A stretch of 51,760 nt of DNA from Bryobacterales bacterium (GTDB lineage Bacteria > Acidobacteriota > Terriglobia > Bryobacterales > Bryobacteraceae). Where the stretch lies: assembly GCA_003170915.1 (NCBI GenBank), contig PMYB01000128.1, forward strand, positions 2,160-53,919, written 5' to 3'. Below are positions 413 through 23,440 of the stretch, piece after piece. A program made the position numbers and the translations under genes. Numbering within the stretch: position 1 is the stretch's first letter; every line of letters begins with the position of its first letter. The notes under the pieces are model-generated. The model was not told where the DNA came from. It saw nothing but the letters and a program-made list of their open reading frames with translations, and searched no databases.

Positions 413-652
413 ATGGAAACCACGGTGAACGAAGAAGAGAAGGCTCCCAAAACTTTGAGAGTTCGTATTTCGGATCTTTTGGACAAAGCCATAGTGGGGA
501 TCGAAGACCGGATCAAGGCCAAGGACTTCAAGCCGACCATGGGGGACTATCTCAAACTTCTGCAGATGGAAATCGAACTCGAGCAGGAAGAAATCAGGGA
601 GATCAAGGTCACATGGGTCGAACCCCCGCCGACGTCCGACTCGGGGAAGTAG
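413..652 (+). CDS. Small acidic protein at the head of the phage cluster, TerS position
   Basis: This 79-aa protein starts at an ATG with SD GAGGA. It is charged and probably helical (many Glu/Lys, with a run around QMEIELEQEEI). Its 3' end overlaps the start of the large terminase by 40 nt, which implies translational coupling. A small terminase normally sits here, but no helix-turn-helix is visible, so the role is guessed from position only. It could be a packaging accessory or an unrelated small phage protein. Confidence 0.6.
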   Translation: METTVNEEEKAPKTLRVRISDLLDKAIVGIEDRIKAKDFKPTMGDYLKLLQMEIELEQEEIREIKVTWVEPPPTSDSGK

Positions 653-1929
653 CTCGGGACATAGCTTATCACCCGCTGCCTTCGCAACAGAAGTTCCATG
701 ACTCGGAGGCCCGATTCAAGGGCTTCTCCGGACCCATTGGCAGTGGGAAGAGCCAGGCGGTCTGCCACGAGGCCATCCGCCTCAGCTATCTGAACCAGGG
801 GCGCCTGGGACTGCTGGGCGCGCCGACCTATCCGATGTTGCGGGATGCGACGCAGGCGGCGCTGTTCGAGATTCTGGATGGGAACAAGATTCCGTTCGAT
901 CACAGCAAGGCGGAAAACACGCTGATCATGCGCGATACGCGATCCAAGATCCTGTTCCGGCCAATGGACGAATTCGAGCGGCTGCGCGGCACCAACCTGG
1001 CATGGTTCGGCCTCGACGAACTGACCTATACCCAGGAAGAGGCGTGGCTGCGCCTGGAGGGGCGTCTGCGCGACCCCAGGGCCAAGCGCCTGTGCGGCTT
1101 TGCGGCGTGGACGCCCAAAGGCTACGACTGGGTTTACCGGAGGTTCATAGCAAAGCCGGTCCGTGGGTACGAGACGATCATCGCCCAGCCGCGCGAAAAC
1201 CGGCACCTGCTCCAACAAATTCCGGATTACTACGACCGGCTCAAAGACAGCTACGACGACCGCTTCTATCAACAGGAAGTAATGGGCCTGTACCTAAACC
1301 TGGATGCCGCGCTGGTATATGCCTCCTTCACGCGCGATGAAAACCTCGCGGTCTTGAGTTTCGATCCTGGTCTGCCGCTGCTTTGGGCGCTGGATTTCAA
1401 CGTGGATCCGATGAGCTCGCTGGTGGTGCAATTGGTCCGCGGCAAGGTGCGGGTGCTGGATGAAATCGTGCTCCGGCACGCCACCACGCGCGAAGCGTGC
1501 GAGGAGTTTTTGAAACGGTTTCCAATAGACCCGGCCGGCATCGTGGTCTACGGAGACGCTTCGGGGTACCAGCAACACACCACCGGAGCGTCGGACTACG
1601 ACATAATCCACGAGTACTTCCAAATCCACTCCGCCATGCCGGTGAAATACAAGGTGCCGAAATCGAATCCGGGCGTGCGGGAACGGATCAATCTGACCAA
1701 CGCCAGGCTGCGTTCGGCGGCCGGCGATATCGGGCTGCTGGTGGACTTCAAGTGCAAGGAACTGATCATGGATTTCGAGCAGGTGTCTTTCAAGGCCGAC
1801 ACCTACCAGATCGACAAGGACCGGGACCGGCTGAGAACGCACCTGTCCGACGCGCTGGGGTATCTGCTCTGGCAGGAATGCATGCCGGTCAAGGCTGTCG
1901 GGGAGCAACGGGGGCGAATTCTTTCATGA
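613..1929 (+). CDS. terL: Phage terminase large subunit
   Basis: This 438-aa protein is the ATP-driven DNA packaging motor and nuclease. Walker A is GPIGSGKS at residues 40-47. Walker B is WFGLDEL with D135/E136. The C-terminal RNase H-like nuclease domain shows acidic residues at D261 (ALDFNVDP), D315 (YGDASG) and the Asp of HLSDALGY. The open frame extends further upstream to 352, but that extension reads through the terminator hairpin and the small gene, so the ATG at 613 is preferred. It overlaps the portal gene by ATGA. All key motor and nuclease residues are present, so it looks intact. Confidence 0.93.
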   Translation: MGRTPADVRLGEVARDIAYHPLPSQQKFHDSEARFKGFSGPIGSGKSQAVCHEAIRLSYLNQGRLGLLGAPTYPMLRDATQAALFEILDGNKIPFDHSKAENTLIMRDTRSKILFRPMDEFERLRGTNLAWFGLDELTYTQEEAWLRLEGRLRDPRAKRLCGFAAWTPKGYDWVYRRFIAKPVRGYETIIAQPRENRHLLQQIPDYYDRLKDSYDDRFYQQEVMGLYLNLDAALVYASFTRDENLAVLSFDPGLPLLWALDFNVDPMSSLVVQLVRGKVRVLDEIVLRHATTREACEEFLKRFPIDPAGIVVYGDASGYQQHTTGASDYDIIHEYFQIHSAMPVKYKVPKSNPGVRERINLTNARLRSAAGDIGLLVDFKCKELIMDFEQVSFKADTYQIDKDRDRLRTHLSDALGYLLWQECMPVKAVGEQRGRILS

Positions 1930-3326
1930 ATAATATTAACCGGGAACATCCCGAGTACATCGCGCGCAAGGCGATGTGGAAGCAGTACAAAGACCTCTAT
2001 GCGGGCGGCGAGCGATTGCGCGCGGACGCCTCGGAATACCTGGTGCGCCGGCACAAAGAGCCGAGCGAGGTCTACCAGGAACGGCTCAGCCGCGTGTTCT
2101 ACCAGAACTACATCGGGTCGATCGTCGACTGGTATGCGGCGACACTCATGCGGCGTGAGCCGGTCCTGTTGATGGACGGAACCGACACTGCCGCCAGGAG
2201 CTTCTACACCGTGCTGGCGGACGATTGCGATTTGAAGGGGACCACCCTCAGCGAGTTTTTCCGCCAACGATTCATCCAGACCATGGTGTGCGGCGGCAGC
2301 TTCATCGTGGTGGACTTTCCGCGGGTTGGCACGGAGGACGCCCCCGCTCCACTGACGCGGGCGGAAGAGGACGCTTCGGGACGGTCGCGCGCCTACCTGG
2401 TGGACTACGGAGCGGACGAGGTCATCAACTGGAACTACGACCCGTCGGGCGGGCTGGAGTGGGCGGTGATCCGCACCTCCTGCCTGCAACAATCCAAGGT
2501 CACGGATTCGAAATGGGAGCGGGAGACGCGCTGGATCTACTACGACCGCGAGAACTTCTTGATGTACCGCCAGGCGGGCGATTCCAGCCCCATCGAGCTG
2601 ATGGACCAGGGACGGCACGGGTTGGCGTCGCTGCGGCGGGTGCCCATGTTCCAGATGAAAGTGTCGGAGGGGCTGTGGCTGCTGAACAAGGCCGCGCTTC
2701 TGCAACTGGAGCACTTCAACAAGTCCAACGCGCTTTCGTGGGCGCTGACGATGGGGCTTTTCGCCACTCCGGTGGTCTATTCGGACCGGGAGTTCACCCA
2801 AATTGTCGGCGAGTCCTATTACATCCAGCTCGGGCCGAATGACCGGTTCGGATGGACGGAGCCGGAGGGAAAGGTCTACCAGATCGCGGCCGACAACCTG
2901 AACCAGTTGAAGGACGAAATCTACCGCGTCTGTTACCTGATGGTCCAGGCCGGGGAATCGAGCGGCGGAGCCCGGCAGTCTGCGGTGAGCAAGCAGTTGG
3001 ACTTCAACACCACGCAGGAGGTGCTGCGCGGGTACGGCGATGCCGTGAAAGACACCATGAAGCAGGTCTTGTGGGCCATCGCGGCCGCGCGGCAGGACGG
3101 AATTTCGATCGGCGTCTCCGGGCTGGACGAGTTCGACATCGACGATCTCAGCACCGAGCTGGACGACGCCAAAAAACTGCTGGACCTGGGGATCGGCTCG
3201 GAGACGTTGACGAAGCAACTCTTCAAGAAGCTGGCCTTCAAGTACCTGAGCGATGCGCGGCAGGAAGTCAAGAACCAGGTGGCGGAAGAGATCGATCGGA
3301 TGAAGTACCGAGAGGGAGTTTCTTAG
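1926..3326 (+). CDS. Phage portal protein
   Basis: This 466-aa protein starts at an ATG overlapping the terL stop (ATGA). Order (terminase, then portal, then scaffold and coat), length and composition fit a portal, the dodecameric ring at the DNA entry vertex. The N-terminal part (HPEYIARKAMWKQYKDLY and YLVRRH) resembles DUF4055-type portals. The C-terminal third is rich in amphipathic helix (SAVSKQLDFNTTQEVLRGYG), as in portal crown regions. A longer frame upstream from 1497 lies inside terL and is not used. I cannot name a catalytic motif, as portals have none. Confidence 0.85.
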   Translation: MNNINREHPEYIARKAMWKQYKDLYAGGERLRADASEYLVRRHKEPSEVYQERLSRVFYQNYIGSIVDWYAATLMRREPVLLMDGTDTAARSFYTVLADDCDLKGTTLSEFFRQRFIQTMVCGGSFIVVDFPRVGTEDAPAPLTRAEEDASGRSRAYLVDYGADEVINWNYDPSGGLEWAVIRTSCLQQSKVTDSKWERETRWIYYDRENFLMYRQAGDSSPIELMDQGRHGLASLRRVPMFQMKVSEGLWLLNKAALLQLEHFNKSNALSWALTMGLFATPVVYSDREFTQIVGESYYIQLGPNDRFGWTEPEGKVYQIAADNLNQLKDEIYRVCYLMVQAGESSGGARQSAVSKQLDFNTTQEVLRGYGDAVKDTMKQVLWAIAAARQDGISIGVSGLDEFDIDDLSTELDDAKKLLDLGIGSETLTKQLFKKLAFKYLSDARQEVKNQVAEEIDRMKYREGVS

Positions 3327-3333
3327 GAGGCAT

Positions 3334-3885
3334 ATGGAAGGCATCGACGTTCAAGCGATCGTCCGGCAGGCAATCGAGGAGTTCGCGACCAACGAGCAGT
3401 CCAAGAATGAGCCGGCTTACAAGGCGGAACTGCAGGAGGAGCGCAAGCGTAGGGAGCAACTCGAGCGCAGGCTGAACGAGTTGGTGGCGGAGAACAAGCG
3501 CAGCCGCCAGATCGCCGCGGAAGCCGAGCGAAGCTCGGCCGTGAGGGCCGAACTGCAGCGGCTGGGCGTGGCCAAGATCGACCTTGCGTTCAAGGCCGTG
3601 CAGGACGGGATCGTGCGGACCGAGGACGGGCGGCTGGTGGCCCGCGGCGACGCCGGCGAAACGCCGTTGAAGGAACACCTGGCGGCGTTCGTGAATGAGA
3701 ATCCGGAGTTTCTGCCGGCTCGCATTGCCGGCGGAACCGGGATGACCGCGACCTTCAAGGCGCCGTCAACGGGCAGAGAAACGGTGAGCATCGAACAGAT
3801 CCGCCCGGGCATGAGCGCGGAAGAGATGCAACGGGTACGAGAGGAAATCGTGCGCGTGGCGTCGCAGACCCTTCGGGGCCTGTAG
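3334..3885 (+). CDS. Capsid scaffold protein
   Basis: This 183-aa protein has a strong SD (TAGGAGG) 7 nt after the portal stop. Residues about 28-70 form a charged coiled coil rich in Glu, Arg and Leu (QEERKRREQLERRLNELVAE). A basic/acidic C-terminal tail with predicted helix follows. Such coiled-coil proteins directly before the coat gene are scaffolds that guide procapsid assembly. No prohead protease is encoded, consistent with P22-type assembly in which scaffold leaves without cleavage. Confidence 0.78.
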   Translation: MEGIDVQAIVRQAIEEFATNEQSKNEPAYKAELQEERKRREQLERRLNELVAENKRSRQIAAEAERSSAVRAELQRLGVAKIDLAFKAVQDGIVRTEDGRLVARGDAGETPLKEHLAAFVNENPEFLPARIAGGTGMTATFKAPSTGRETVSIEQIRPGMSAEEMQRVREEIVRVASQTLRGL

Positions 3886-3941
3886 TAACATCCGGCCCAA
3901 ACACAAGCGGCCGGCAAGAACAATCAAGTCAAGGAGAACGA

Positions 3942-4847
3942 ATGGCAGCTATTACCTCAACTAACGTCGCAAGCGCGATTGTCAAGCTGGTGGCGGCGGA
4001 CGCATTGCCGGTGCTGGTCGGGAACCTCGTAATGGGGAACCTGGTGAATCGCGACTACGAGCCGGTGCTGGCAAATGCCGGCGACACGGTAAACATACCG
4101 ATACCCCCGACGATGTTGGCCAACAACATCCTCGAAGGCTACTCGGTGCAGACGCAAAACCCCAGTCTGGGAAACGCGCAGATTGTGCTCAATACGCACG
4201 TGGAAGCGACCTTCCAGATTCCAGACGTGACCAAGGTGCTGGCGGTCCCGGACCTGCTGAAGATCTACATGCAGCCGTCGGTGGCCGCCATCGCCCAGAG
4301 AATCGAGACCGACCTTCTGAGCCTCTACGCCGGTTTCTCAACCACGGTGGGAACGGCGGCGACGCCGATCACGGAAGGCGTCATCGACGCGGCGGAAACA
4401 GCGCTTTTCCTGCAGAAGGTTCCGCCTCAAGAGCAGAAGTTCATTGTGGTGGACGCGGCGACCTATTCGACCTGGCGGCAAATTCCGCGCTTCAGCGAAT
4501 TCCAGAACTCGGGCGAAGCGGGCCTTCGTGCGATCATCGAAGGCACCGTCGGGAAGATCAAAGACTTCTTTGTCTTCCGCTCGCAGTTCGTGCAGAAGAC
4601 GGGCACCACCACGGTGACCACCCACAACATGGCGTTCACCAAGGACGCCCTCGGCCTGGTGATCCGGCGGCTGCCGCAGCCGCTGCCCGGAACCGGCGCC
4701 ATCGCGGAGTATGCGGAGTTGGGCAACTTCGGTATGCGCGTGGTGATGAGCTACCAGCCCAACACGCTGGCGCAGCAGTTCACGGTGGACGTGCTGTACG
4801 GCTGTGGCGTGCTGCGCAACACCTCGGGCGTGCAGGTCAACACGTAG
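3942..4847 (+). CDS. Major capsid protein, P22 coat-like
   Basis: This 301-aa protein has the N-terminal pattern of P22 gp5-type coat proteins: an early helix, then DTVNIPIPP and a short loop leading to EATFQIPD. The segment AIAQRIETDLLSLYAGF is the spine helix, and EQKFIVVDAATYSTW belongs to the HK97-fold core. It ends with a beta strand (GMRVVMSYQPN). SD AAGGAG lies 6-7 nt before the ATG. At 301 aa it is shorter than P22 coat (about 430), so it lacks the inserted I-domain. It forms the icosahedral shell. Confidence 0.85.
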   Translation: MAAITSTNVASAIVKLVAADALPVLVGNLVMGNLVNRDYEPVLANAGDTVNIPIPPTMLANNILEGYSVQTQNPSLGNAQIVLNTHVEATFQIPDVTKVLAVPDLLKIYMQPSVAAIAQRIETDLLSLYAGFSTTVGTAATPITEGVIDAAETALFLQKVPPQEQKFIVVDAATYSTWRQIPRFSEFQNSGEAGLRAIIEGTVGKIKDFFVFRSQFVQKTGTTTVTTHNMAFTKDALGLVIRRLPQPLPGTGAIAEYAELGNFGMRVVMSYQPNTLAQQFTVDVLYGCGVLRNTSGVQVNT

Positions 4848-4915
4848 GACGGCAGACCACTGCCCAGCGGTCGCGGCTCCGATTCGGAGGCGCGACAGCC
4901 GGGGAGTGGTCGTTC

Positions 4916-4940
4916 GGGGCGAGCTACGCCTCGCCCCTGT
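4916..4940 (+). terminator. Hairpin after the coat gene, possible partial terminator
   Basis: A perfect 8-bp GC stem (GGGGCGAG with CTCGCCCC) has a 6-nt loop and is followed by TGTTT. The T run is weak. It may reduce read-through so that coat is made in excess over downstream tail proteins, or protect the 3' end of the coat message. The SD of the next gene follows at about 4947. Confidence 0.5.
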
Positions 4941-4958
4941 TTCATTCAGGAGATATCG

Positions 4959-5285
4959 ATGGATTTGAGGCTCTATTACCAGAAGATTCGCGACATGGAA
5001 TCGAAGATTACGGAAGCGTTTCCAATCGTGGTGAGCAATGAGACGGCGGACGGTGGCAAGCCGGGGGTTCTGACGGAAGTGACGCCCGGAATCGCCGCCA
5101 AAATGCTGGTGCAAGGGGCGGCTCGCCTGGCCACCGCCGAGGAAGCGATGGCCTTCCGGGCGGTGCAAGCGGAAGCCAAGCGAGTGGCCGACCAGGAGGC
5201 GGCGGCGGCCAAGGTGCAGTTCACGGTGCTGTCGACCACGGAACTGAACAAGTTGAGGGGCGCTTTGAAGTCCTCGAAAGACTAG
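4959..5285 (+). CDS. Unknown phage protein behind the coat gene
   Basis: This 108-aa protein has SD AGGAGA and a clear start. An N-terminal helix (YYQKIRDMESKI) is followed by a short beta-rich stretch (FPIVVSNETADGG, PGVLTEVTP) and an Ala/Glu/Lys-rich helix (EEAMAFRAVQAEAKRVADQEAAAAK). The position suggests a head decoration, head fibre or connector protein. No family is recognised, and the assignment to the particle rests on context alone. Confidence 0.6.
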   Translation: MDLRLYYQKIRDMESKITEAFPIVVSNETADGGKPGVLTEVTPGIAAKMLVQGAARLATAEEAMAFRAVQAEAKRVADQEAAAAKVQFTVLSTTELNKLRGALKSSKD

Positions 5286-5295
5286 GCGAACAATC

Positions 5296-6075
5296 ATGGC
5301 TCTCTTCACAGACGGTCCCGCTTCGTCGATGGAAGACCTTACGGCGCAGGATTCGCAGCTTCTCGACGTGGCCAGCGTCGAGGGAATCGACGTGACCCAG
5401 AAACTGGTTCTGGCCCAGGACGAACTCGCCCTGGAGCTGGACGCACTGTTGACCAGGTTGAGCTACGTGAACCAGTTGTTCTGGCTTGCGCCCCAGCCGA
5501 ACCTCGGCAGCGTGGTGGTAACGCCGGCGCTGAAATTGTGGCACACCTTTCGCAGTCTGGAAATGGTTTACAGCGACGCATACAACAGCCAGTTGAATGA
5601 CCGCTACGCCGGCAAGCGCGACCAGTTCCACTCGACCGCGAAGTGGGCATACGAAATGCTGATTGCGGCCGGTATCGGCGTAGCGTCGGTCCCGGTACCG
5701 CGGGCGGCCATGCCGGCGGTGACGGCAGCGGCGGCCCCGGCGCCGGGCACCCCACTGCCGGACGGCAGTTACTACGTGACCGTGGCCTGGGTCAACGCCG
5801 CGGGCGAAGACGGAGCGAGCGCCCTACCGGCAACCATCGCGACCACGGGGAGCTCTCTGCTGGTCCAGCCGGAAGGCGCTCCGCCAAAAACCGCGGCGGG
5901 ATGGAACGTCTATGTAGGCGTCGGCCCGGATTCGATGGCCCTGCAAAACGGATCGCCCATTGCCATCGCGCAAACGTGGCTGCAACCGGTGCCCCTGGCG
6001 GCGGGGCGGCCACCGGGACCTGGACAACGTCCCAGTTATCTGAAGCCTGTTCCACGGGTGATCCAGAGGGGCTGA
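5296..6075 (+). CDS. Head-tail connector-type protein with an Ig-like C-terminal domain
   Basis: This is a 259-aa protein. Residues 1-120 are mostly helical, with LSYVNQLFWL and a helix ending in DRYAGKRDQFHSTAKWAYEML. That style recurs in adaptor proteins between portal and tail. After an Ala/Pro linker (about 128-150), residues 155-240 form a beta-sandwich with GSYYVTVAWVNAAGEDGAS, a fibronectin III or Ig-like fold common on phage particles, where it is thought to aid surface contact. It overlaps the next gene by TGATG. Confidence 0.6.
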   Translation: MALFTDGPASSMEDLTAQDSQLLDVASVEGIDVTQKLVLAQDELALELDALLTRLSYVNQLFWLAPQPNLGSVVVTPALKLWHTFRSLEMVYSDAYNSQLNDRYAGKRDQFHSTAKWAYEMLIAAGIGVASVPVPRAAMPAVTAAAAPAPGTPLPDGSYYVTVAWVNAAGEDGASALPATIATTGSSLLVQPEGAPPKTAAGWNVYVGVGPDSMALQNGSPIAIAQTWLQPVPLAAGRPPGPGQRPSYLKPVPRVIQRG

Positions 6076-6575
6076 TGACAGCGAAAATCGGAAGCGCAAC
6101 AACGGCCCAAGTGATGCAGCGCATCACGGGCGCGAGCGGCGTGAATTCGAGCCTGGCCGCTCTCACGCAAGCGGACCGGGCGTTGGCCGGTCCGCTGGAC
6201 CTGGCGCAAGTACGCGCGCAGAACGTGGCGGCGGACCTGGCCGAACGCAGCAGCACGGTGAAGTACCCGGTTGTGAACGTGTACTGCGAGCAGGTGACGA
6301 ACCGATTGACGGAGAAGTTTCGGACCTTCTCCGGCACGGCTCAGATGACCATCGAGGTTCGACATTCCCAGGACCGGCTGGAGGGGCTCCAGGACAGTCT
6401 GCAACTCTACACGGACGCTGCCACGCAGGTGCTGGCCGCGAACCTCGGCGATTGGGGCAATGGGATGTTTTACGCTGGCGGATACGAAGCGTCCTTCGGA
6501 CCCGTCAAGCAAGGCGGGAAGAATTTCATTCAGGTGGCCAAGGTCACCTTCGAGATTGGAGTGAGTAAAAGCTAG
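6075..6575 (+). CDS. Tail completion / tail terminator-type protein
   Basis: This 166-aa protein starts at the ATG inside TGATG of the previous stop. It lies directly before the tail tube gene. It combines an N-terminal helical stretch with strands around KYPVVNVYCEQV and AQMTIEVRHS and a final strand FIQVAKVTFEIGVS. This fits tail terminator or head-closure proteins (gpU/gp17-like), which cap the tube and join it to the head. A longer upstream frame in the previous gene is rejected. Confidence 0.55.
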   Translation: MTAKIGSATTAQVMQRITGASGVNSSLAALTQADRALAGPLDLAQVRAQNVAADLAERSSTVKYPVVNVYCEQVTNRLTEKFRTFSGTAQMTIEVRHSQDRLEGLQDSLQLYTDAATQVLAANLGDWGNGMFYAGGYEASFGPVKQGGKNFIQVAKVTFEIGVSKS

Positions 6576-6576
6576 T

Positions 6577-7752
6577 ATGGCCTCTTATATTTCCTCTAAC
6601 GCAAACCGGTTCTACACGGCGCTGGAAACGAGCTACGGCCAGGTGGGATCGATCACATCCGGCAACCGGATTCCGGCTCTGAAGCTGACGGTCCAGCAGA
6701 AACTCGAGGCGGCGCAGCGGAAGGACAAGACGGGCAGCCGGACGTTTCCCGGCCAGGCGCCGGGCGGCCGGCGGCAGACGAATTTCGAGCTGCAGACATA
6801 CATGACGAGCTGGCAGAAAACGGGCGGAAACCCGGGATATGGCCCGCTGTTTCAGGCGGCACTCGGGGGCGCGCCGCTGCAGTTCGCCGGCGGGACCGCG
6901 GCATCCGCCACGGCGGGCGGAAGGCTGGGGTTCGCAGCGCCGCACGGGCTGGGCGCGGGGCAGGCGGTCTCATGCGCGGGGGAGATCCGGTTCGTGGCCG
7001 CCATCGTGGACACCAGCACGGTGCAATTGAACGCGCCGTTTACCACGCTGCCCGGAACCGGCGCGGCACTGGGCGCCGCGGTCACCTACGTGCCCGCGAC
7101 GGAGCTGCCGAGCGCCAGCGTATTCGACTACTGGAGCCCGGCGACGGCGGTGCAGAGGCTGCTCTGCGGGGCGGCCGTCGACCAGATGGAAATCCAGGTT
7201 AACGGCGATTACCACGAGTTCCACTTCAGCGGCCTGGCGCAGGACGTGCTCGATAGCAGCAGCTTTTCCTCCGCCAACGTCGGACAGCTTCAAAGCTTTC
7301 CCGCGGAGCCGGCGCTGGCCGCGTTCGACTATTCGATTGTGCCGGGAAACATGGGCGAGGCGTGGCTGGGAACTTCGCCCTCGCAGTTCCTCACCATCAC
7401 CAGCGCATCCATCGTTCTCAAGAACCAACTGGACACGCGCTCCAAGGAGTTCGGATCGAACCTGCCGCGCAGCATTTCTCCGGGCCAGCGGTCCGTGACG
7501 GCGGCATTCGAGCTCTTCAGCCAGGACGACGACGCTACTAAAGGTCTCTATCAGGCCGCCAGGCAGCAATCGCCCATCAGTGTCATGTTTCAGTTGGGCG
7601 TGGCCGAGGGACAGGTCATGGGCGTGTACCTGCAGAGCGTGATTCCTGAGGTTCCGGAGTTCGATGACGGCCAGAACCGGTTGCAGTGGAAATTCCGGCA
7701 GTCGCGCGCGCAGGGCACGGTCGACGACGAAATCGCGGTGGCGTTCGCATAA
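6577..7752 (+). CDS. Major tail tube protein
   Basis: This 391-aa beta-rich protein starts one base after the previous stop. The start YISSNANRFYTALETSYG and the end (PEVPEFDDGQNRLQWKF) match tail tube proteins that stack as rings. An inserted domain of about 70 residues (AASATAGGRLGFAAPHGLG to GAAVTYVP) looks like an Ig-like decoration facing outward. Position between the terminator-type gene and the G/GT chaperones supports the call. Confidence 0.75.
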   Translation: MASYISSNANRFYTALETSYGQVGSITSGNRIPALKLTVQQKLEAAQRKDKTGSRTFPGQAPGGRRQTNFELQTYMTSWQKTGGNPGYGPLFQAALGGAPLQFAGGTAASATAGGRLGFAAPHGLGAGQAVSCAGEIRFVAAIVDTSTVQLNAPFTTLPGTGAALGAAVTYVPATELPSASVFDYWSPATAVQRLLCGAAVDQMEIQVNGDYHEFHFSGLAQDVLDSSSFSSANVGQLQSFPAEPALAAFDYSIVPGNMGEAWLGTSPSQFLTITSASIVLKNQLDTRSKEFGSNLPRSISPGQRSVTAAFELFSQDDDATKGLYQAARQQSPISVMFQLGVAEGQVMGVYLQSVIPEVPEFDDGQNRLQWKFRQSRAQGTVDDEIAVAFA

Positions 7753-7754
7753 TC

Positions 7755-8120
7755 ATGACCTACGAAAGCGTAACGACGGTGGAGTCGCAAGTCGCCCGCG
7801 GGGTGACTTTCACGCTGGCGAAGATCTCCTTCGGACGCCGCGTGGAGCTGATGCGCCGGGTGCGGGAACTGGCCCGGCGAATGGAGTTCCTGGAGGCCGG
7901 CCAGGCGCCCGGCGACAAGATGGACGCGGCGCTGCTCCAGACCGAAATCGACCGGCTGTTCCTGACGTGGGGACTGCGGGCCGTATCGGGACTGGAACTG
8001 GACGGCGCGGATGCCACACCCGAACTCCTGGCGGAAGCCGGGCCGGAGGACCTGTTCCGGGAAGCGCTGGCGGCGGTGCGGGCAGAGACGGGATTGTCCG
8101 AGGCGGAACGAAAAAACTGA
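7755..8120 (+). CDS. Tail assembly chaperone, G-type
   Basis: This 121-aa helical protein starts with MTYESVTTVESQ, two bases after the tube gene stop. Between tail tube and tape measure, siphophages and GTAs encode tail chaperones made as a short (G) and a frameshifted long (GT) form. Its last codons are CGA AAA AAC followed at once by TGA, a classical -1 slippery heptamer. A longer upstream frame start (7686) lies in the tube gene and is not used. The protein is not part of the finished particle in known systems. Confidence 0.75.
   Translation: MTYESVTTVESQVARGVTFTLAKISFGRRVELMRRVRELARRMEFLEAGQAPGDKMDAALLQTEIDRLFLTWGLRAVSGLELDGADATPELLAEAGPEDLFREALAAVRAETGLSEAERKN
8111..8117 (+). promoter_or_regulatory. 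-1 ribosomal frameshift site A AAA AAC
   Basis: In the frame of the G-type gene the bases read A AAA AAC directly before TGA (8118-8120). This is the canonical X XXY YYZ slippery pattern. Slipping back one base leads into the open -1 frame that runs to 8458. A small hairpin (CCAACC with GGTTGG, 8145-8161) lies 27 nt downstream, further than the usual spacing, so the stop codon itself may supply the pause. The placement between tube and tape measure matches known G/GT genes. Confidence 0.72.
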
Positions 8121-8458
8121 TTGTCGCCTTCCACTTTCAATTCTCCAACCAGGCCGGTTGGAAGTGCGACGTCTGCCGGAAGTCCGGCCTGGAGAAAAAG
8201 CGCCGGTGCGGGTGGCTGGCGATGGGCGAGGACGCCAGTGGACCGCTGGTCTGGGCGCGAAGGGATGTAGCGCTCAGAACCTGCCCGAAGCCGTATATCA
8301 CGGCTGAGAGCCAGACGCTGGTGGAGGATTTTTTTGTGCGGCGCCGGCTGCGAGGGATGGATTTTGCGGAGCTGAGCGCGCGGCAAGTGGAAGCGTTCGT
8401 GATTCTGGAAAGGGCTTTTGCCGCGGAGATCGACTATGGCCAGCACACCACAAGATAA
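8117..8458 (+). CDS. T-type extension of the tail chaperone, made by -1 frameshift
   Basis: This 113-residue extension is read after slippage at 8111-8117 and gives a GT fusion of about 234 aa with the G part. It has a Cys-rich patch (KCDVCRKSG, then RCGW and RTCPK) that could bind zinc, then a helical end (FAELSARQVEAFVILERAFAAEI). It lacks its own good SD and ATG. Re-initiation at a non-ATG codon near the G stop is a less likely alternative. T domains bind the tape measure protein during tail assembly. It overlaps the tape measure start by 23 nt. Confidence 0.7.
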   Translation: MIVAFHFQFSNQAGWKCDVCRKSGLEKKRRCGWLAMGEDASGPLVWARRDVALRTCPKPYITAESQTLVEDFFVRRRLRGMDFAELSARQVEAFVILERAFAAEIDYGQHTTR

Positions 8459-9122
8459 ACTCTACGAAACTTTTGTAGCGGCGTCGGGGCAACAGGATCC
8501 CAACCTGGATGGGACGCTCGACAGCGGCGAAGAGATTGCGGTCTCACTGAGCGACACGGTGAACCAGCTCGGCGAACTCCAGGGAAGCAGCGCGGCGCAG
8601 GCGACCGGCGGCGGCAGCACTTCCACCGCGGGCACAACCAGCAGCGGCAGCACTTCCACCGCGAGCACAACCAGCGGCGGCAGCACGGCGGAGTCAATCG
8701 CAACCACAGTTCTGGAGAGCGGGCTGGGCATGGTCCCCTTGATTGTCGGGTTGCTGGGGCTATTCGGAGGCGGGGGCACGCCGGCGCCGCCGACGCTGGA
8801 GAAATATGCGATGCCGGACCGGCTCTACTTCGAGGGCGCGGACACCGGCAGCGACGTGAGCGGCGCCGATTACGACCAAATGGGGATGCCGAGGACGTAC
8901 AGCGCGGCGCCGGAGGGAACGAGCGCACAGGCCAGCGGGCTTGCGCCTCCCGGCAACAGCGGCAGCGGCGCGAGCAGCGGCGCTGCGGCGCCTCAGATCA
9001 CCGTGAACGTGCAAGCCATGGACTCGCAATCGTTTCTGGACCACAGCAACGAAATCGCCCAAGCGGTTCGCGCCGCGATGTTGAATTCCAATTCGATCAA
9101 CGACGTGGTCAACGACCTCTAA
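8436..9122 (+). CDS. Very short tape measure protein
   Basis: This 228-aa protein occupies the tape measure position. Its C-terminal stretch with ITVNVQAMDSQSFLDHS and AVRAAMLNSNS is the ending seen in many tape measure proteins. The centre has a Ser/Thr/Gly repeat (GSTSTAGTTSS, then GSTSTASTTSG) and one hydrophobic segment (GMVPLIVGLLGLFGG). Tape measures usually have 600-1500 residues. At roughly 0.15 nm per residue, this one would set a tail of about 30-35 nm. It could be intact and define a stubby tail, or be a shrunken remnant. Confidence 0.68.
   Translation: MASTPQDKLYETFVAASGQQDPNLDGTLDSGEEIAVSLSDTVNQLGELQGSSAAQATGGGSTSTAGTTSSGSTSTASTTSGGSTAESIATTVLESGLGMVPLIVGLLGLFGGGGTPAPPTLEKYAMPDRLYFEGADTGSDVSGADYDQMGMPRTYSAAPEGTSAQASGLAPPGNSGSGASSGAAAPQITVNVQAMDSQSFLDHSNEIAQAVRAAMLNSNSINDVVNDL
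8613..8684 (+). repeat. 33-bp tandem repeat inside the tape measure gene
   Basis: Two full 33-bp units start at 8613 and 8646, and a partial third starts at 8679, each with GGCAGCAC. Each encodes 11 residues of the GSTSTA-TTS type. The length is a multiple of three, so copy-number change would alter the protein, and perhaps tail length, without frameshift. Confidence 0.85.
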
Positions 9123-9123
9123 C

Positions 9124-9483
9124 ATGTCCACCTTTCCCAAGCTAAAGACCAACGCGGTGGCGCAGTATCCGGCGACCAGGGCCCTCCGGTTTCAAAACCA
9201 GGCGCTGCGATTCGTGGACGGAGTGGAACAACGCTACCGCGACTCGGCCGGGCCGCTGCACCGCTGGGAGATCCGCCTGGACGCGCTGGATGAGAGCGAA
9301 ATGGCGGCGCTGGAGCAATTCTTTTTCGACAACCAGGGATGTTTCGGGAACTTCGCATTCACCGATCCATGGGACGGAACTCAATACCCCAATTGCAGTT
9401 TGGCCAGCGACGAACTGGACCTGACCGCCATGGCGGAAATGCAAGGTAAGACCTCGCTGACCGTGATCGAGAACCGGGGATAG
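9124..9483 (+). CDS. DUF2460-like distal tail protein, first copy
   Basis: This 119-aa protein has the pattern RWEIRLDALDESEMAALEQFF, then GCFGNFAFTDPWDGTQYPNC and an ending SLTVIENRG. It fits the DUF2460 family, which includes the GTA distal tail protein (g12 of the Rhodobacter capsulatus GTA). These proteins join the tube to the hub and base. It is shorter than usual (about 200). It starts one base after the tape measure gene and is followed by a paralogous second copy. Confidence 0.7.
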   Translation: MSTFPKLKTNAVAQYPATRALRFQNQALRFVDGVEQRYRDSAGPLHRWEIRLDALDESEMAALEQFFFDNQGCFGNFAFTDPWDGTQYPNCSLASDELDLTAMAEMQGKTSLTVIENRG

Positions 9484-9486
9484 CAC

Positions 9487-10269
9487 ATGCTGGTATACCC
9501 ACAACTCGCCACCGGAGCTTTGAGCCAGTTTCCGGTTCAAAAGCGGCGCCGTTTGCGGACGGTTGTGAATACGTCTCTGGACGGCAGGCCGATCAAGCTG
9601 GCCGATCCGGGAGCGGAAATCACCGAATGGCAGTTGGCGTACGCGGGTTTGACCGATGACGAAGTTGCCGCCTTGCAGCAGTTCTTCGCGGCCACCGAGG
9701 GAACGCTCAATAGTTTCACGTTCCTGGATCCAACCGCCAACCTTTTCGCCTGGAGCGACAAGCTGGACAATGCGGCTTGGGCCAAGCAGCCGTTCCTTTT
9801 GGTTGCAGGCGGAATCGCCGACCCCGCGGGCGGGACGAACGCATGGCACCTCACCGATTCCGGCGCCGGCGCTCAGAACATTTGCCAGACGTTGTCCGCT
9901 CCGGCGGGGTACTTGTACTGCTTCAGCGTATTCGCGCGGTCGCTCGAAGCCACCGCCGCGATCCTGCTGCACGGAAGCAATCGCGCCGATCGAACCCTGG
10001 GAACAAATTGGAGCCGGATCGCTTTGACAGCCAGCGGCGACGCGTCGGCGGAATCGATCGCCTTTGGCGTGGAGCTGCCGGCCGGAGGGTCCGCGGATGT
10101 ATTCGGCCTGCAAGTGGAGCCGCAGGCTGGCGCGTCGCTCTACAAAGCGACCACCACGGGCGGCGTTTATGAGAACGCGCGATTCCGCGATGACGTCCTC
10201 TCCATAACCACAACTGGCGTAAACTGCCACTCCGCCACGGTCAACATCATTTATGCAAACCATCTCTGA
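9487..10269 (+). CDS. Second distal tail protein with a carbohydrate-binding-type domain
   Basis: This 260-aa protein repeats the motif of its neighbour in residues 1-85 (EVAALQQFFAATEGTLNSFTFLDP). The rest (about 88-235) is a beta-sandwich with W-rich starts (NLFAWSDKLDNAAWAK), reminiscent of carbohydrate-binding modules found in phage adhesins. It probably arose by duplication of the upstream gene followed by gain of a binding domain. It overlaps the hub gene by 17 nt. Confidence 0.65.
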   Translation: MLVYPQLATGALSQFPVQKRRRLRTVVNTSLDGRPIKLADPGAEITEWQLAYAGLTDDEVAALQQFFAATEGTLNSFTFLDPTANLFAWSDKLDNAAWAKQPFLLVAGGIADPAGGTNAWHLTDSGAGAQNICQTLSAPAGYLYCFSVFARSLEATAAILLHGSNRADRTLGTNWSRIALTASGDASAESIAFGVELPAGGSADVFGLQVEPQAGASLYKATTTGGVYENARFRDDVLSITTTGVNCHSATVNIIYANHL

Positions 10270-13200
10270 GCTGAAGGAACAGGCGGTCACGGATACGCCG
10301 CTTCTGGTCTTCGACTGCGTGCTCTCCAACGGCCAGACGGAACAGTGGAGCACGCACCAGGTGACCGTGGATGGCGCGACGTACCAGCCGCGAGTTCTTC
10401 AGCACAGCGCCTTCGACATTCAGACAGCGTCCGACCAGGGCATCGACGGCAGCCCGCGAATCTCGGTTGTGCTGGCCAACGCCGACTCGCACTTTTCGGA
10501 AATCGAGCGCGCGACTGGATGGAAGGGCGCGCGGCTGACCGTAGGGTTCCTCTTTTACGATTTGCGAAACGACGCCCCGCTGACGGATACGGCGGTGGTG
10601 TTTCAAGGAATCTGCAACCCGCCGGATCAGATCAAGGAATCGACATTCCGCCTGACCGCCATCAACCGGATGAACCTGCAACGGCTGCTGCTTCCGCAGG
10701 TCCGCATCCAACGGAGATGCCCGTGGGAGTTCCCGGCGACCGCGGGTCAGCGGACAGAAGCCGTCAACGGCGGCGCGAACGGCAAGTACTCGCTCTATTA
10801 CCGTTGCGGCTATTCCGCCGGGGTCGCCGGGGGAACCGGCAGTCTGAATGGCGGCGCGCCGTTTACTTCGTGCGGGTACACGCGGCAGGACTGCCAGGCG
10901 CGAGGAATGTTCACCCGGTTCGGCGGGCTCGAGTTCGTTCCGCCGGCGATCTCCGTGCGCGGTTACGGAAAAGACTGGTCGACATCGGCCGTCTCGGACA
11001 ACCAGGCGCGCTATAACGACTACGTTCCGATGGTGTACGGCACGGCCTGGTGGGAGCCACTGGTGGTGTTTGCGCGCAACGACGGCAACCTCACCCGGAT
11101 GGAGGCGCTCCTGGGAATCGGCGAGATCCAGGGCGTGCTGACGGTGCTGGTGAGCGGTGTCGAGATTCCCATGGGAGTCTCCGGCAGGAACATGACCGGC
11201 ACGGGCTGGTACAACATTCAGACGATGGGGACGCGCGACGGCGCGTTCGACTACAACTTTCTGGATGGTAGCGGGAATCCGGCGGGAGACCCTTATGGCA
11301 GCATGGCGTACCTTTCCGTGGTGGTCCCCAATCAGTTGAACAATGGGACTTCGCTCCCAACCGTGAAGGTGCTGGCACAGGGACTGAAGGTGCCCACCTA
11401 TGCGGCGGACGGAACGTACATCAGCGACCAGTTCTCGAGCAACCCCGCATGGATCCTGCTGGACGTTCTTCGGCGGAGCGGATGGGCCGCTTCTGAAATC
11501 GACCTCACCAGCTTTGCGGCTGCCGCAACATATTGCGATGAATCGATCGACTCCACCGACCTGAACGGCAACCCCATCACCCTTCCACGGTTTCAGTGCA
11601 ACCTGGTCTTACAAAACAGGCGCAGCGGCGGAGACGTTGTCCGCGGCGTCCGCAATGCCGCGCGGCTTTACCTCACCTACGGACCGGGAGGGGTGCTGCA
11701 GTTGCAGGTGGAGAACACGGCGGCACTGCAGCAGCCTGCCAAGCCGGACTGCTCGAACAGCACGCAACCACTGAACGGAGGCTGGCCGAGTTACGAATTT
11801 GGAGACGGCAGTAGCGGCTTCTCGGGAATCCTGAGGCGGCCGACTGGCGAGCCGAGCGTCACCGTGACCGCGCGCAGCATCGCGGATACGCCGAACCGCC
11901 TCTCGGTAGAGTTTCAGGACGCTCTCAACGGCTACCAGCAGGACAGCTATGAGCTGGTGGACTCGGCCGACATCGCCCTGGCGGGGCAGGAAGTTTCCAT
12001 GACGCTCCCGGCGCTGGGCCTTCCGCATTACGATCAGGCGGCCCGGATTCTGAAATTCAATCTCGACAAGTCGGTTCGCGGAAACACTTACATCCAGTTC
12101 GATACCAGCGTAAAAGCCTTCGGGATCCGGCCGGGCGACCTGATTACGGTTACCTACCTGAAGGAGGGCTTGAATCGCCAGCCGCTGCGGGTTCTGAAGA
12201 TTTCTCCGGCCACCAACTACCGGACTTCCACCATCACGGCGCAGATCCACGACGACGCGTGGTACTCGGACACGAACGGCCAGGTGACTTCGCCCGGAGG
12301 TGTGACACAGGGGAACCCCGGCGTCGGCGTGCCGAGACCCCTAATCGGCGCCGTGTTGGACGAAAACGGAGACGTTCAGTTCGGCATTGTGGAATCGACG
12401 GCCACGAGCAGCGATAACACGGTGGAAGCGAGCGTATCGGTCAGTTTCGTTCCACCCGCGGGCCCAGGCGGCAGCTCAGCGGTCGCCGGGCCGGGCATAC
12501 CGTTGTTGGGCCTGGTACCCACGGTTGGAACAGGTGGAACGCTTCAGGCTGGGCAGACGCTGTACTATGCGGTCTCCGGCGAGGACAGCGCCGGAAACGA
12601 GAGTGCGTTGTCATTCATCGTCAGGGCGTCGATCTCGAGCGCTGGGAGCAGCGTGACGCTGTCGGCGTTGAGTTTCGCGCCGGGAACGAGCGCGTTTCGC
12701 GTGTATCGGGGAAGCACTCCGGCGGAACTTTTTCGAATCGCTTCAGACCAGGCTCTTGCTGGTCAGTTCACGGATACGGGTCTCGCAAATCAACTGATTG
12801 CCCCTCCCGATTCCAATTTCGATCACGCCAACTTTTACTGGCGGATGGAGCTGCAACCGGAAAGCGGCGTGACGCTGCAGTCATCGACGTCGGTGGGAAA
12901 CGGATCGTTGCAGATGACCGCGAACCGTTACCAAAGCATGATTGCGCGGATCACGCGAGGCACCGGCGCCGGGCAGGAGCGCGCCATCGCGGCCAACGAC
13001 ACAACCAGCCTGACGATCGCGCCCCCTTGGAGCGTGGAGCCGGATGCTACGAGTTTCTTCGTAGTGGCGGAAACCGGCTGGCGGTTCGGCGCGCTCTCCA
13101 GGAGCAGCCCCGTGCAGTTTGCGGTTCCCAACCGGTCGGGAGAGGTGGTTCAGCTCACCGGGCGCGCGGCCAACGTGAACGGCGTGGAATGCGCGCCGGA

Positions 13201-14143
13201 GATATCCACGGTTACCCGGTGGCAGATCGGCGGCGGCGGGACGAGCGACAGCGACGTTCCCCCGATGCCATTTTTCGGGCTGGGTCCGGGCCAGCGTGGC
13301 GGTACGGTGGAACTGAGCGGGGTTTCCTTCACGGACTTGACCGACACGCGGACCATTTCGGCGGCTACGCTGACGATGTACTACTGGGATGAATTGCAGG
13401 GCACGCCGGTGATTACGCTGGCCAGCGCCGTGGCAACCGGCGATACTCTACTGAGCCTGAGCTCGCCCGGATCCGCGCAGGCCGGAAGCTTCATCCAGAT
13501 TGAATTGGAGGTGATCCGCGTCGAGGCGGTCGAGAGCAACGGCGCGCAGTACAGTGTGACGCGAGCCATCGATGGCAGCCAGGCAACGGCACACGCCGCA
13601 CAAACACCGGTGTATCATCTTCTGAGCAAGACGGTGATCGCGCCGTTCCCGCCGGACTTTTTTGGCAGTCCCTACAGCGGGAGCTGGAGCTACCCCATTA
13701 CGCTTCCGGATGTGCGGGTGGCCAGCGCCGAGTTGTTTGTCACGAACCAGAAGGGGAACAGCCCGGCCAAAGACATCTGTCTGACCCATACCACCGACAG
13801 CGGGCTGCGCACGCTGTCGGGCGGGCAGTACTCCATTCAGGTGGACGGGTATCTGGCAGTGGATCAATCGGCCGCGCCGGCGCTGGTGATGGAGGCATCG
13901 CACGCGGTGCGGGATGTGTACGCCGTGCTGGGTAAGGCCGCCGACGCCGCGGTCGGGCTCCAGTTGAACCTCAACGGTGCGTCCTATTGCCAACTGACAT
14001 TTGCCACGGGGGCGACGGTTTCGAGCACCGTGGACGGCAACACACTGGCCCCGCTGCCATCGGGAGCGCAGGTGACGCTGTCGGTGCTGTCGGTGGGACA
14101 GACCAATCCCGGCTCGGACCTCACCGTCATCATCCGACTCTAA
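10253..14143 (+). CDS. Tail hub / host-specificity protein, DUF2163-like N-terminus
   Basis: This 1296-aa protein has residues 1-300 like the DUF2163 hub protein of GTAs and lambda gpL. They contain a set of four Cys (C156, C185, C207, C214, the last two in CGYTRQDC) that could hold an Fe-S cluster, as known in related hubs. The middle (about 300-670) is a baseplate/tail tip-type region rich in beta strands (YDQAARILKFNLDKSVRGN, then FGIRPGDLITVTY). Two Ig/FN3-like domains follow (around 745-850), and the end looks like a receptor-contact region. No NlpC/P60 peptidase gene, usual in GTAs at this place, is present. It overlaps the next gene by one base. Confidence 0.78.
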   Translation: MQTISELKEQAVTDTPLLVFDCVLSNGQTEQWSTHQVTVDGATYQPRVLQHSAFDIQTASDQGIDGSPRISVVLANADSHFSEIERATGWKGARLTVGFLFYDLRNDAPLTDTAVVFQGICNPPDQIKESTFRLTAINRMNLQRLLLPQVRIQRRCPWEFPATAGQRTEAVNGGANGKYSLYYRCGYSAGVAGGTGSLNGGAPFTSCGYTRQDCQARGMFTRFGGLEFVPPAISVRGYGKDWSTSAVSDNQARYNDYVPMVYGTAWWEPLVVFARNDGNLTRMEALLGIGEIQGVLTVLVSGVEIPMGVSGRNMTGTGWYNIQTMGTRDGAFDYNFLDGSGNPAGDPYGSMAYLSVVVPNQLNNGTSLPTVKVLAQGLKVPTYAADGTYISDQFSSNPAWILLDVLRRSGWAASEIDLTSFAAAATYCDESIDSTDLNGNPITLPRFQCNLVLQNRRSGGDVVRGVRNAARLYLTYGPGGVLQLQVENTAALQQPAKPDCSNSTQPLNGGWPSYEFGDGSSGFSGILRRPTGEPSVTVTARSIADTPNRLSVEFQDALNGYQQDSYELVDSADIALAGQEVSMTLPALGLPHYDQAARILKFNLDKSVRGNTYIQFDTSVKAFGIRPGDLITVTYLKEGLNRQPLRVLKISPATNYRTSTITAQIHDDAWYSDTNGQVTSPGGVTQGNPGVGVPRPLIGAVLDENGDVQFGIVESTATSSDNTVEASVSVSFVPPAGPGGSSAVAGPGIPLLGLVPTVGTGGTLQAGQTLYYAVSGEDSAGNESALSFIVRASISSAGSSVTLSALSFAPGTSAFRVYRGSTPAELFRIASDQALAGQFTDTGLANQLIAPPDSNFDHANFYWRMELQPESGVTLQSSTSVGNGSLQMTANRYQSMIARITRGTGAGQERAIAANDTTSLTIAPPWSVEPDATSFFVVAETGWRFGALSRSSPVQFAVPNRSGEVVQLTGRAANVNGVECAPEISTVTRWQIGGGGTSDSDVPPMPFFGLGPGQRGGTVELSGVSFTDLTDTRTISAATLTMYYWDELQGTPVITLASAVATGDTLLSLSSPGSAQAGSFIQIELEVIRVEAVESNGAQYSVTRAIDGSQATAHAAQTPVYHLLSKTVIAPFPPDFFGSPYSGSWSYPITLPDVRVASAELFVTNQKGNSPAKDICLTHTTDSGLRTLSGGQYSIQVDGYLAVDQSAAPALVMEASHAVRDVYAVLGKAADAAVGLQLNLNGASYCQLTFATGATVSSTVDGNTLAPLPSGAQVTLSVLSVGQTNPGSDLTVIIRL

Positions 14144-15591
14144 TGCCGGACCAACTCTCCAAACTGCGCCCGGACCGGGATTTGCAGTGTTACTTTCAGG
14201 AGCCGTCGGCGGTGGCGGCGCTCAGCGGGACCAGCCAAAGCGGGTTCGCTGTCTCGGGGTGCTGGAGGCAGCAATTCGACTGGGTGGTGGTGGAATGGAA
14301 CCGCGACAACGTGTTCCAGCATCCCGCGCTCCGCAACCTCCCGGACGGAGATCTGAGCGGATTGCATCTCAGCTACGAAGAGACCCGCACCAACTGCATC
14401 CCCCTGGATTCCACGACGTACGACTCAATAAGCTGGTCCTACTTGAGAATCTGGGAGGAATCCAACAACGCCGAGAACTTTCATCGAGTTCCTATCCTTC
14501 AGTATGCCGTGGCGGTGGACGGCAGTTACACGCAACCTACGGCGGTCTTCGAGTTTCAAGGCGCGCCCGTAGCCGGGGATATTGTGGGACTGGCGTGGCT
14601 GGACCAGCACCCCAATTACTGGGTTGTGGCAGGTAACAGCGCGGCGGACGTGGCCAGCGGCCTGGCGGCCAACATCAACGCCCAAACCAGCACCAGCAAT
14701 GTTTCGGCCAGGGCCAGTGGCAGCCAGATCACGCTGACCTATAATGGCGCGCCAGGGGCGAACGGGAACCGCGTGGGCGTGTATGGGTGGGTGTACAGCC
14801 CTAGCAGCGGCACGGGGGCGTGGTCGCCATCCTGGGCCATGTTCCAAGGGGGAACATCGCCCGGCCGCTGGCGCGTGAATCTCGATTTCAGCAATCTGAA
14901 AGATGAATTCGGAAACACCGTCACCACCACCAACGTGCGCAAGCTGCGCTGGACGTGGGCCGCGGACTTACAGTCCGGTAACTTCACGCGAAGCGAGTTC
15001 GCGGTGGTGGTAACCAACTGGCAGGTTACGGGAGCCAAGCTGGCGTACAGCGTTGCGGGGCCGGGCAGCCGGAGGATTGAAGACATCGCGCCGGAGATTT
15101 CGTACACCGGCGCATGGGTGGAGGAGCGCGGCAATTACTCCGGGGGATCGATCCACCACACGACTACCCAGGGTAACCACCTGCAATGCACTTACTCCGC
15201 CGCCGCGCACACACTGTACCTGGGGACGCGGTACTCCGACAACGGCGGACAAGTCACGGTGCAGGTGGATAGCAATCCGGCACTGATTGTGAATCTGAAG
15301 CGATCGCTGGAGGACGTCCTCATCAGAGTTCCGCTAGGGCAATTCTCAGGCCAGGCGCAGCATACCGTCACAGTCACTAACACCGGCGCCGCGGGAACGG
15401 ACGTCTACTTCGATTTCCTGGAGATTGCCATCCCCACCGCGGACCTGCCGGTGTTCGCCGCCTACCCCACCACTGCGCTGGCAACCGACTGGGACACGGA
15501 CCACTCGCTGGCCATCGCGCCGGAGAGGACGGCTTGGCTCATCGGCACGCTGGGCTTCAAAGGCCGGGCCAATCATTATGCCGGAGCGTAG
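14143..15591 (+). CDS. Receptor-type tail protein, 5' part, split by the mobile element
   Basis: This 482-codon frame starts at the ATG overlapping the hub stop (TAATG). It is beta-rich, with domains around FSNLKDEFGN and VFEFQGAPVAGD. At codons about 479-482 it meets the mobile element and ends at a TAG five bases beyond the crossover. The matching 3' part lies at 27472-28736 in the same frame. Joined, they give one 901-aa protein. The truncated product would lack the C-terminal catalytic-looking or binding domain. Length and last position in the cluster suggest a distal adhesin or fibre. Confidence 0.8.
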   Translation: MPDQLSKLRPDRDLQCYFQEPSAVAALSGTSQSGFAVSGCWRQQFDWVVVEWNRDNVFQHPALRNLPDGDLSGLHLSYEETRTNCIPLDSTTYDSISWSYLRIWEESNNAENFHRVPILQYAVAVDGSYTQPTAVFEFQGAPVAGDIVGLAWLDQHPNYWVVAGNSAADVASGLAANINAQTSTSNVSARASGSQITLTYNGAPGANGNRVGVYGWVYSPSSGTGAWSPSWAMFQGGTSPGRWRVNLDFSNLKDEFGNTVTTTNVRKLRWTWAADLQSGNFTRSEFAVVVTNWQVTGAKLAYSVAGPGSRRIEDIAPEISYTGAWVEERGNYSGGSIHHTTTQGNHLQCTYSAAAHTLYLGTRYSDNGGQVTVQVDSNPALIVNLKRSLEDVLIRVPLGQFSGQAQHTVTVTNTGAAGTDVYFDFLEIAIPTADLPVFAAYPTTALATDWDTDHSLAIAPERTAWLIGTLGFKGRANHYAGA

Positions 15592-17302: not shown

Positions 17303-17775
17303 GACAGGCCTCCCTCTCCTTCCGCATCCAGGAGGCCCCGCAGGCCCTTTAACTGCGCCGCGGCGTCGGGCTTGTACTCGCGCTGGATGGTGAAGCGCGT
17401 CGGGTCGTAGTCGAGGTCGATGATCTCGGTCCACCGATCCTCTTGACGCTGGCGCGCGATTACCTCGTCCCGGTTCTGGGACCAGAGGATCACCTGCGGG
17501 TTGGCATGGGCTTGATCCAGCATCTTGGCGGCAGCGCCGACGCCGCCAACAAAATCCTCGTCACCCGGTTTAGGGGGATTGGGGTCGGTGGGGATCGCAA
17601 TCAACCCGTACCAGCGGCCCGGCTTCGGAGGGGAGGGCGGCTTAGCTTTCCCGTACCGTGACAGGACGGCATGTCTGGCAGCCGCGCTGCGCTGCTCGGG
17701 CGTCAACGTCTTCAGCCGCGCCTTCCCGCCCTTCCGGCCCAGGGCGACGGCTGCCGGGTCCTTCAGTTTGCTCAC
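17299..17775 (-). CDS. Unknown protein translated with the recombinase
   Basis: This 158-aa protein starts at a GTG about 7 bp downstream of a TATAAT box, so the mRNA may be leaderless. Residues 5-40 have ALGRKGGKARLKTLTPEQRS, a basic Gly/Lys-rich segment seen at the start of many small bacterial proteins of unknown role. The rest has one conserved-looking block (RWYGLIAIPTDPNPP) and an acidic end. It overlaps the recombinase start by 4 nt, so the two are co-expressed. It may be a recombination accessory such as a directionality factor, but that is only inferred from coupling. Confidence 0.65.
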   Translation of the reverse strand: MSKLKDPAAVALGRKGGKARLKTLTPEQRSAAARHAVLSRYGKAKPPSPPKPGRWYGLIAIPTDPNPPKPGDEDFVGGVGAAAKMLDQAHANPQVILWSQNRDEVIARQRQEDRWTEIIDLDYDPTRFTIQREYKPDAAAQLKGLRGLLDAEGEGGLS

Positions 17776-23403: not shown

Positions 23404-23440
23404 GCACCCAGGCTATGGTGCTAGACTCCTGGGAAACACC

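Follow-up and report, generated by a model that had tools for sequence, protein, structure and literature searches.

A conserved slippery heptamer and a predicted H-type pseudoknot in the probable tail chaperone genes of a head-tail gene cluster apparently inherited across the Bryobacteraceae

The heptamer A_AAA_AAC at the end of a predicted tail assembly chaperone gene in a 51,760-nucleotide stretch of Bryobacterales DNA (GenBank assembly GCA_003170915.1, contig PMYB01000128.1; hereafter the window) is very probably a −1 programmed frameshift signal, as had been predicted from the sequence in a preliminary description. With the same high confidence, we read the locus as one at which frameshifting would yield a G protein and a minor G-T fusion in the style of the lambda G/GT pair. 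The frameshift is a variant of a known arrangement; what is new beyond the preliminary description is a predicted pseudoknot downstream of the heptamer, a stimulator which that description had missed, and the family-wide, inherited setting in which the signal is found.

The slip site and its reading frames

The end of gene G reads GAA CGA AAA AAC TGA (8106-8120) by direct inspection of the sequence. The following features make up the junction:

7755-8120, + strand: gene G, predicted tail assembly chaperone, 0-frame product of 121 amino acids ending ..ERKN-stop (open reading frame, 27-member alignment, AlphaFold2, Foldseek)
8111-8117, + strand: slippery heptamer A_AAA_AAC in the frame of gene G (conservation and synonymous constraint)
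8118-8120, + strand: TGA stop codon of G in the 0 frame (132 of 133 loci stop here or one codon later)
8117-8458, + strand: T domain, predicted to be reached by −1 frameshifting, 113 amino acids with the conserved cysteines CxxC..C..CP (translation, relatives, dN/dS)

The open reading frame of G is listed as 7686-8120, with an ATG at 7755 and a product of 121 codons. The preliminary description had A AAA AAC TGA in the right phase directly before the G stop, and this is how the frame of G runs at 8111-8120. The immediate stop holds for the window and for 111 of the 133 loci compared; in 21 loci the stop lies one codon further on and in one it lies further downstream. The near 0-frame stop is missing in two loci from other families. 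Downstream of the heptamer the −1 frame proceeds as CTG ATT GTC and onward to a stop at 8456-8458. The 113 open codons claimed earlier were thus confirmed as far as 8458, with the qualifier that this frame is also open upstream in the window, as far as 7664. The bare heptamer is not a rare string in the window (three occurrences against 3.7 expected), so that the case for a slip site rests on its phase, its context and its conservation.

Conservation of the heptamer

A search with the T protein found 145 relatives on viral contigs, 80 of which were retained, and 55 loci on genome contigs whose labels are nearly all Bryobacterales, Solibacter or Acidobacteria; more distant query proteins added 12 further T relatives. 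A nucleotide scan of 2.9 million viral contigs with AAAAAACTNNNNGTCGCNNTYCA matched at least 120 contigs, and 77 of the 79 contigs read among the matches listed are G/T junctions. Among 50,697 sequenced phages T had no relative, and nothing that could seriously be called a relative of G turned up.

We gathered T-gene junctions by a T protein motif, with the heptamer ignored, and obtained 240 distinct contexts, 239 of them readable; the 240th is interrupted by an assembly gap. The alignment of homologous loci proposed in the preliminary description gave AAAAAAC in 237 of the 239 readable contexts and AAAAAAT in the other two; these junctions are related by descent, and the counts are not those of independent events. 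A chance heptamer is ruled out by this conservation across T-gene junctions. The variant A_AAA_AAT stands in place of A_AAA_AAC at loci L022, L308, L401 and L402. At locus L131, on one genome contig, an N assembly gap (7984-8003) falls exactly over the slip site.

For synonymous sites, 118 representatives with less than 93% nucleotide identity in G were analysed. The lysine codon of the heptamer is AAA in all 118, while elsewhere in the same genes 259 AAA stand against 682 AAG, an AAA share of 27.5% among the lysine codons outside the heptamer. The preceding codon is CGA, AGA, ACA, ATA, GCA or TCA; its third base is A in every representative, although the amino acid varies among Arg, Thr, Ile, Ala and Ser (Gln was also found in another comparison). 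The strongest synonymous constraint within the G/T genes lies on the heptamer, and from these codon comparisons the constraint appears clearly independent of the encoded protein. The heptamer is also kept in one family of the same order, in two families of the same class and in a divergent paralogue in genome G492.

Access to the T frame

Conservation of the T protein begins at its first residues, and dN/dS values of 0.11-0.29 in the nine close pairs for which they were computable indicate purifying selection. The protein might be made separately, without frameshifting, from a non-standard start codon (CTG, ATT or ATC) through translational coupling at the G stop. An AGGA, GAGG or GGAG motif 5-12 nt before the heptamer, present in 39% of loci against a baseline of 14%, would suit such initiation, as would the frequent occurrence of ATT or ATC, weak bacterial initiators, as the second T codon. 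However, most loci have no Shine-Dalgarno motif, and the T frame is without a conserved start codon: it opens with CTG, CTC, CTA, CTT or TTA, followed by a second codon that varies widely and can be CTA, ACG, AGG or TTT, among others. ATG, GTG and TTG are all absent from 43 of 134 loci when the open −1 frame up to 60 codons upstream and the first eight codons of T are considered, and 29 of 134 relatives have a −1 frame that closes no more than 30 codons upstream, often after 3-6. Moreover, translational coupling would work without a fixed heptamer and without a pseudoknot. We consider a separate start of T very unlikely and reject it; the comparative pattern argues that T would be reached only by frameshifting. 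Homologues with separate T starts and no slippery site, named in the preliminary description as the observation that would speak against frameshifting, were looked for and not encountered; the heptamer was universal.

The same G-T fusion would also result from transcriptional slippage, in which RNA polymerase adds one A on the six-A run of the site and thereby produces in-frame fusion mRNAs. Six A residues are short for productive polymerase slippage, which counts against this mechanism. Longer runs are almost never seen, the next base being C or T, and polymerase slippage leaves the RNA fold that lies downstream at ribosomal spacing unexplained. We regard transcriptional slippage as extremely unlikely and favor slippage of the ribosome.

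A predicted pseudoknot downstream of the heptamer

Downstream of the heptamer the RNA is predicted to fold into an H-type pseudoknot with a stem 1 (S1) of 11 bp, a stem 2 (S2) of 9 bp and loops of 15, 1 and 13 nt:

8118-8122, + strand: spacer of 5 nt between heptamer and pseudoknot (from the S1 geometry)
8123-8133, + strand: 5' arm of S1, GUCGCCUUCCA (covariation)
8149-8157, + strand: 5' arm of S2, CCAGGCCGG, inside the S1 loop (covariation, RNAalifold)
8159-8170, + strand: 3' arm of S1, UGGAAG(U)GCGAC, with a bulged U at 8165 (covariation)
8184-8192, + strand: 3' arm of S2, CCGGCCUGG (covariation, RNAalifold, synonymous constraint)

The spacer falls inside the range of 5-8 nt given for stimulators in PMC4066793. 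As a prediction from comparative data, the pseudoknot is well supported by compensatory changes, synonymous constraint and the independent recovery of S2. Across 119 distinct sequences, 96.8% of the pseudoknot cells are paired and seven pairs are changed on both sides (S1: 98.8% of cells, four pairs; S2: 94.5% of cells, three pairs). None of 500 shuffles equals the pseudoknot on any of five measures, and control structures slid along the alignment pair 31-46%. Column pair 13-60 changes from GC to CG, column pair 47-74 does so in nine of the 119 aligned sequences, column pair 40-81 changes from CG to GC in L119, and column pair 18-54 takes all six standard pair types in a set of 222 sequences; an A in column 18 (A18) can pair with U55 if the bulge moves. 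In this larger set 92.2% of the cells are paired overall, with S2 pairing at about 70-94% at several pairs among the most distant sequences. RNAalifold, which is blind to pseudoknots, recovers S2 alone and unprompted. The mean synonymous constraint is 0.61 bits in 8117-8192 as compared with 0.21 upstream and 0.24 downstream, and it falls off just past 8192, the boundary of S2. Locus L138 has a loop insertion that leaves the S1 arms intact. L401 and L402 have CCGC/GCGG in place of UCGC/GCGA at the base of S1, and the pairing is retained.

A real frameshift might have a different stimulator, namely an extended nested stem-loop in which GUCGC/GCGAC is continued by ACUUUCAAUU/GGUUGGAAGU and no pseudoknot forms. 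This structure is close to the nested minimum-energy fold of the window, and 92% of the cells of its upper helix pair, although this is less than in S1. Columns 24 and 30, synonymous positions of this stem-loop, are free, whereas columns 15 and 18 of S1 are constrained, and the stem-loop leaves unexplained the independently found S2 with its GC/CG swaps at 47-74. We therefore judge the nested stem-loop unlikely to be the stimulator and prefer the pseudoknot, to which the stem-loop could be a transient alternative.

A Shine-Dalgarno stimulator, an optional element of such sites, was not found at the usual distance of 9-14 nt before the shift site: such motifs occur in 2% of cases in the −18 to −9 interval, below the baseline of 17%. 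A local hairpin, CCAACC/GGUUGG, failed the covariation analysis (87% of cells paired, a score reached by 446 of 500 shuffles). Folding of the single segment was uninformative (z −1.65), and an Rfam search revealed no frameshift element; a sub-threshold match to SECIS_2 on the opposite strand was taken as chance.

The G and T proteins

Searches of PHROGs, Pfam and NCBIfam gave no convincing family for either G or T, so that their assignment as chaperones rests on fold and position. The AlphaFold2 model of G has a mean pLDDT of 88. Its Foldseek matches to entries named as phage tail assembly or tape measure chaperones have probabilities of 0.9-1 and E-values of 0.04-0.2; the best match, and the sole one below 1e-3, is an uncharacterised protein (E = 2e-9). 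A fold search of the PDB with G found nothing. The modelled fold of G appears to resemble those of named tail assembly chaperones, with modest E-values. The model of T is weak (pLDDT 72) and its fold search gave no useful match. T has four conserved cysteines and no known relatives outside the set assembled here.

The head-tail gene cluster

Gene G lies in a cluster of 14-15 genes (637-15591) that keeps its gene order in all 20 well-assembled genomes of the family that were compared. Together with its neighbors, it is composed as follows:

637-6575, + strand: terminase large subunit, portal, scaffold-like protein, P22-type coat and three small genes (PHROG/Pfam; collinear in 20/20)
6577-7752, + strand: tail protein, probably the tail tube (PHROG 290, E = 2e-14; position; 20/20 genomes)
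8436-9122, + strand: short tape-measure-like gene, 228 amino acids, overlapping the end of T by 23 nt (PHROG 3779, E = 3e-4)
9124-15591, + strand: two DUF2460 genes, a J-like tail tip protein and gene 15 (Pfam PF09343, PHROG 31; collinear)
15557-17434, − strand: serine recombinase, XisF/Ccr-like, abutting the cluster (this genome only)
22104-27088, − strand: second mobile element with tyrosine integrase, RNase E/terminase-small-like and primase/helicase-like genes

PHROG 290 carries the label 'minor tail protein', which we read here as the tail tube. The slip site is accordingly placed between tail tube and tape measure, as the preliminary description had it, the downstream assignment resting on a weak match (PHROG 3779). 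Tape-measure-like candidates in the relatives are mostly 171-348 amino acids long; a protein of 228 amino acids implies a very short tail. Gene 15 is missing from some relatives. The cluster combines a P22-type coat (3942-4847) with siphovirus-type tail genes (6577-10269). The nearest isolate relatives of the coat, at about 25% identity, belong to siphophages of 75-88 kb of Streptomyces, Vibrio and other hosts. The element at 22104-27088 is apparently unrelated to the cluster.

Distribution and inheritance of the cluster

The T domain is present in 162 of 200 Bryobacteraceae genomes, covering 67 of 76 genera and almost always as one copy, and was not found in the other 38. A draw of 396 genomes across the whole phylum contained T in two, both Bryobacteraceae, and the coat protein occurred outside the family in three of about 230 members of the class. 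A tree of seven cluster proteins from 38 genomes shares 19 of 35 splits with the host tree, which is built on one gene (rpoB), compared with a mean of 0.17 and a maximum of two after label shuffling. The nine genera represented by two or more genomes are each monophyletic in both trees; some nodes are in conflict. Genomes of five genera have the same downstream neighbors, an ABC transporter and a peptide transporter, in common. In most pairs dN/dS is low for all cluster genes, indicating purifying selection.

These data bear on the question whether the cluster is an ordinary temperate prophage whose conservation reflects a successful phage lineage. Many contigs carrying the cluster are found in IMG/VR, a Bryobacterales-specific provirus group that is possibly the same has been described (PMC11924767), and in the window a serine recombinase abuts the cluster. 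Furthermore, genome G492 contains extra divergent coat copies, and T is absent from part of the family. On the other side, the cluster is nearly always single-copy across most of the genera, the serine recombinase of the window has no homologue beside the cluster in 20 of 20 other genomes (20-kb view), the cluster tree is largely congruent with that of rpoB, and the neighboring genes are common to five genera. We hold the prophage explanation to be doubtful, and the serine recombinase is probably a separate insertion. The viral-catalogue contigs of the cluster may be host chromosome. The additional coat copies of G492 lie at C1:847043-871506 (L404) together with a T-like gene containing A_AAA_AAC, possibly a related prophage.

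By its sequence record, the cluster gives the impression of a domesticated element and is a candidate gene transfer agent. It behaves as such elements do: head, tail and terminase genes stand together, inheritance appears vertical with the host, and no integration or replication genes are found in the cluster (20-kb view). A gene transfer agent cannot be proven by sequence alone (PMC11841831). We regard it as an evenly balanced proposition that the frameshift is part of a previously undescribed Bryobacteraceae gene transfer agent, or of a comparable domesticated particle, in which A_AAA_AAC and an IBV-like pseudoknot would set the chaperone ratio.

Discussion

From the conserved signal and its gene context we infer both the slippage itself and the tail-assembly function of G and G-T. 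A ribosome translating G would meet A_AAA_AAC while facing the H-type pseudoknot 5 nt downstream; some ribosomes would slip by −1, bypass the G stop and continue through T, so that a major G protein and a minor G-T fusion would be produced in a ratio set by the frameshift. As in lambda (PMC5009743), binding of the tape measure would fall to the G part and recruitment of tail tube subunits to T.

The likeness to lambda G/GT extends to the gene order (tail tube, G, −1 slip, T, tape measure), to a G stop soon after the heptamer and to a T that would be made only as a fusion. The gene order, the conservation of the heptamer and the lack of a conserved T start all support the lambda-like reading given in the preliminary description. 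No sequence similarity to lambda G/GT was detectable in the libraries searched; known G/GT pairs share little sequence, and there is no family match here in PHROGs, Pfam or NCBIfam. The lambda slip heptamer is G_GGA_AAG, whereas the signal described here consists of A_AAA_AAC and a conserved H-type pseudoknot, and its T has four conserved cysteines.

In layout the signal is like that of coronaviruses of the IBV type, with an H-type pseudoknot, an 11-bp stem 1 and a short spacer after an X_XXY_YYZ heptamer; the stem 1 of IBV is not functionally reducible below 11 bp, and on mammalian ribosomes A_AAA_AAC ranks with the shiftiest sites (PMC5009743). It differs in being read by a bacterial ribosome, in its independent sequence, in a loop 1 of 15 nt and in a stem 2 of 9 bp, and no common origin is implied. 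In Escherichia coli, A_AAA_AAC slips far less than A_AAA_AAG (PMC5009743), and hence the pseudoknot may matter more here.

Bacterial precedents resemble parts of the signal. We take the IS cluster A_AAA_AAC_1 to be IS1. The same heptamer is used there in proven bacterial −1 frameshifting (PMC4066793); these elements differ in being without an established stimulator and in encoding transposase rather than tail genes. The tail assembly genes of corynephage phi16 share the gene context and a predicted H-type pseudoknot, but as far as the accessible text of PMC5506516 goes, that proposal is a single-genome prediction with GGGGGAA and an internal Shine-Dalgarno sequence, and with no comparative support reported.

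Gene transfer agents of the RcGTA type have a head-tail cluster of about 14-15 kb, a short tape measure and DUF2460-type tail genes, and they too are inherited vertically under purifying selection. The Bryobacteraceae cluster differs in its P22-type coat and its host phylum. Provirus group (i) of PMC11924767, specific to the Bryobacterales and treated there as a provirus, agrees in host group and provirus-like calls and may be the same as this cluster; frameshifting and tail chaperones go without mention in that text.

Tail chaperone genes are familiar sites of frameshifting, but the stimulators behind it have seldom been defined. In the present case, a single heptamer and a single pseudoknot can be traced across a bacterial family and into other families, with a covariation that is strong enough for base-by-base testing. 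Bacteria would thereby have come to a coronavirus-like signal layout on their own, with a heptamer of low shiftiness in E. coli. More surprising than the frameshift is the candidate gene transfer agent: a family-wide, vertically inherited cluster that would present a testable gene transfer agent case in a dominant soil phylum.
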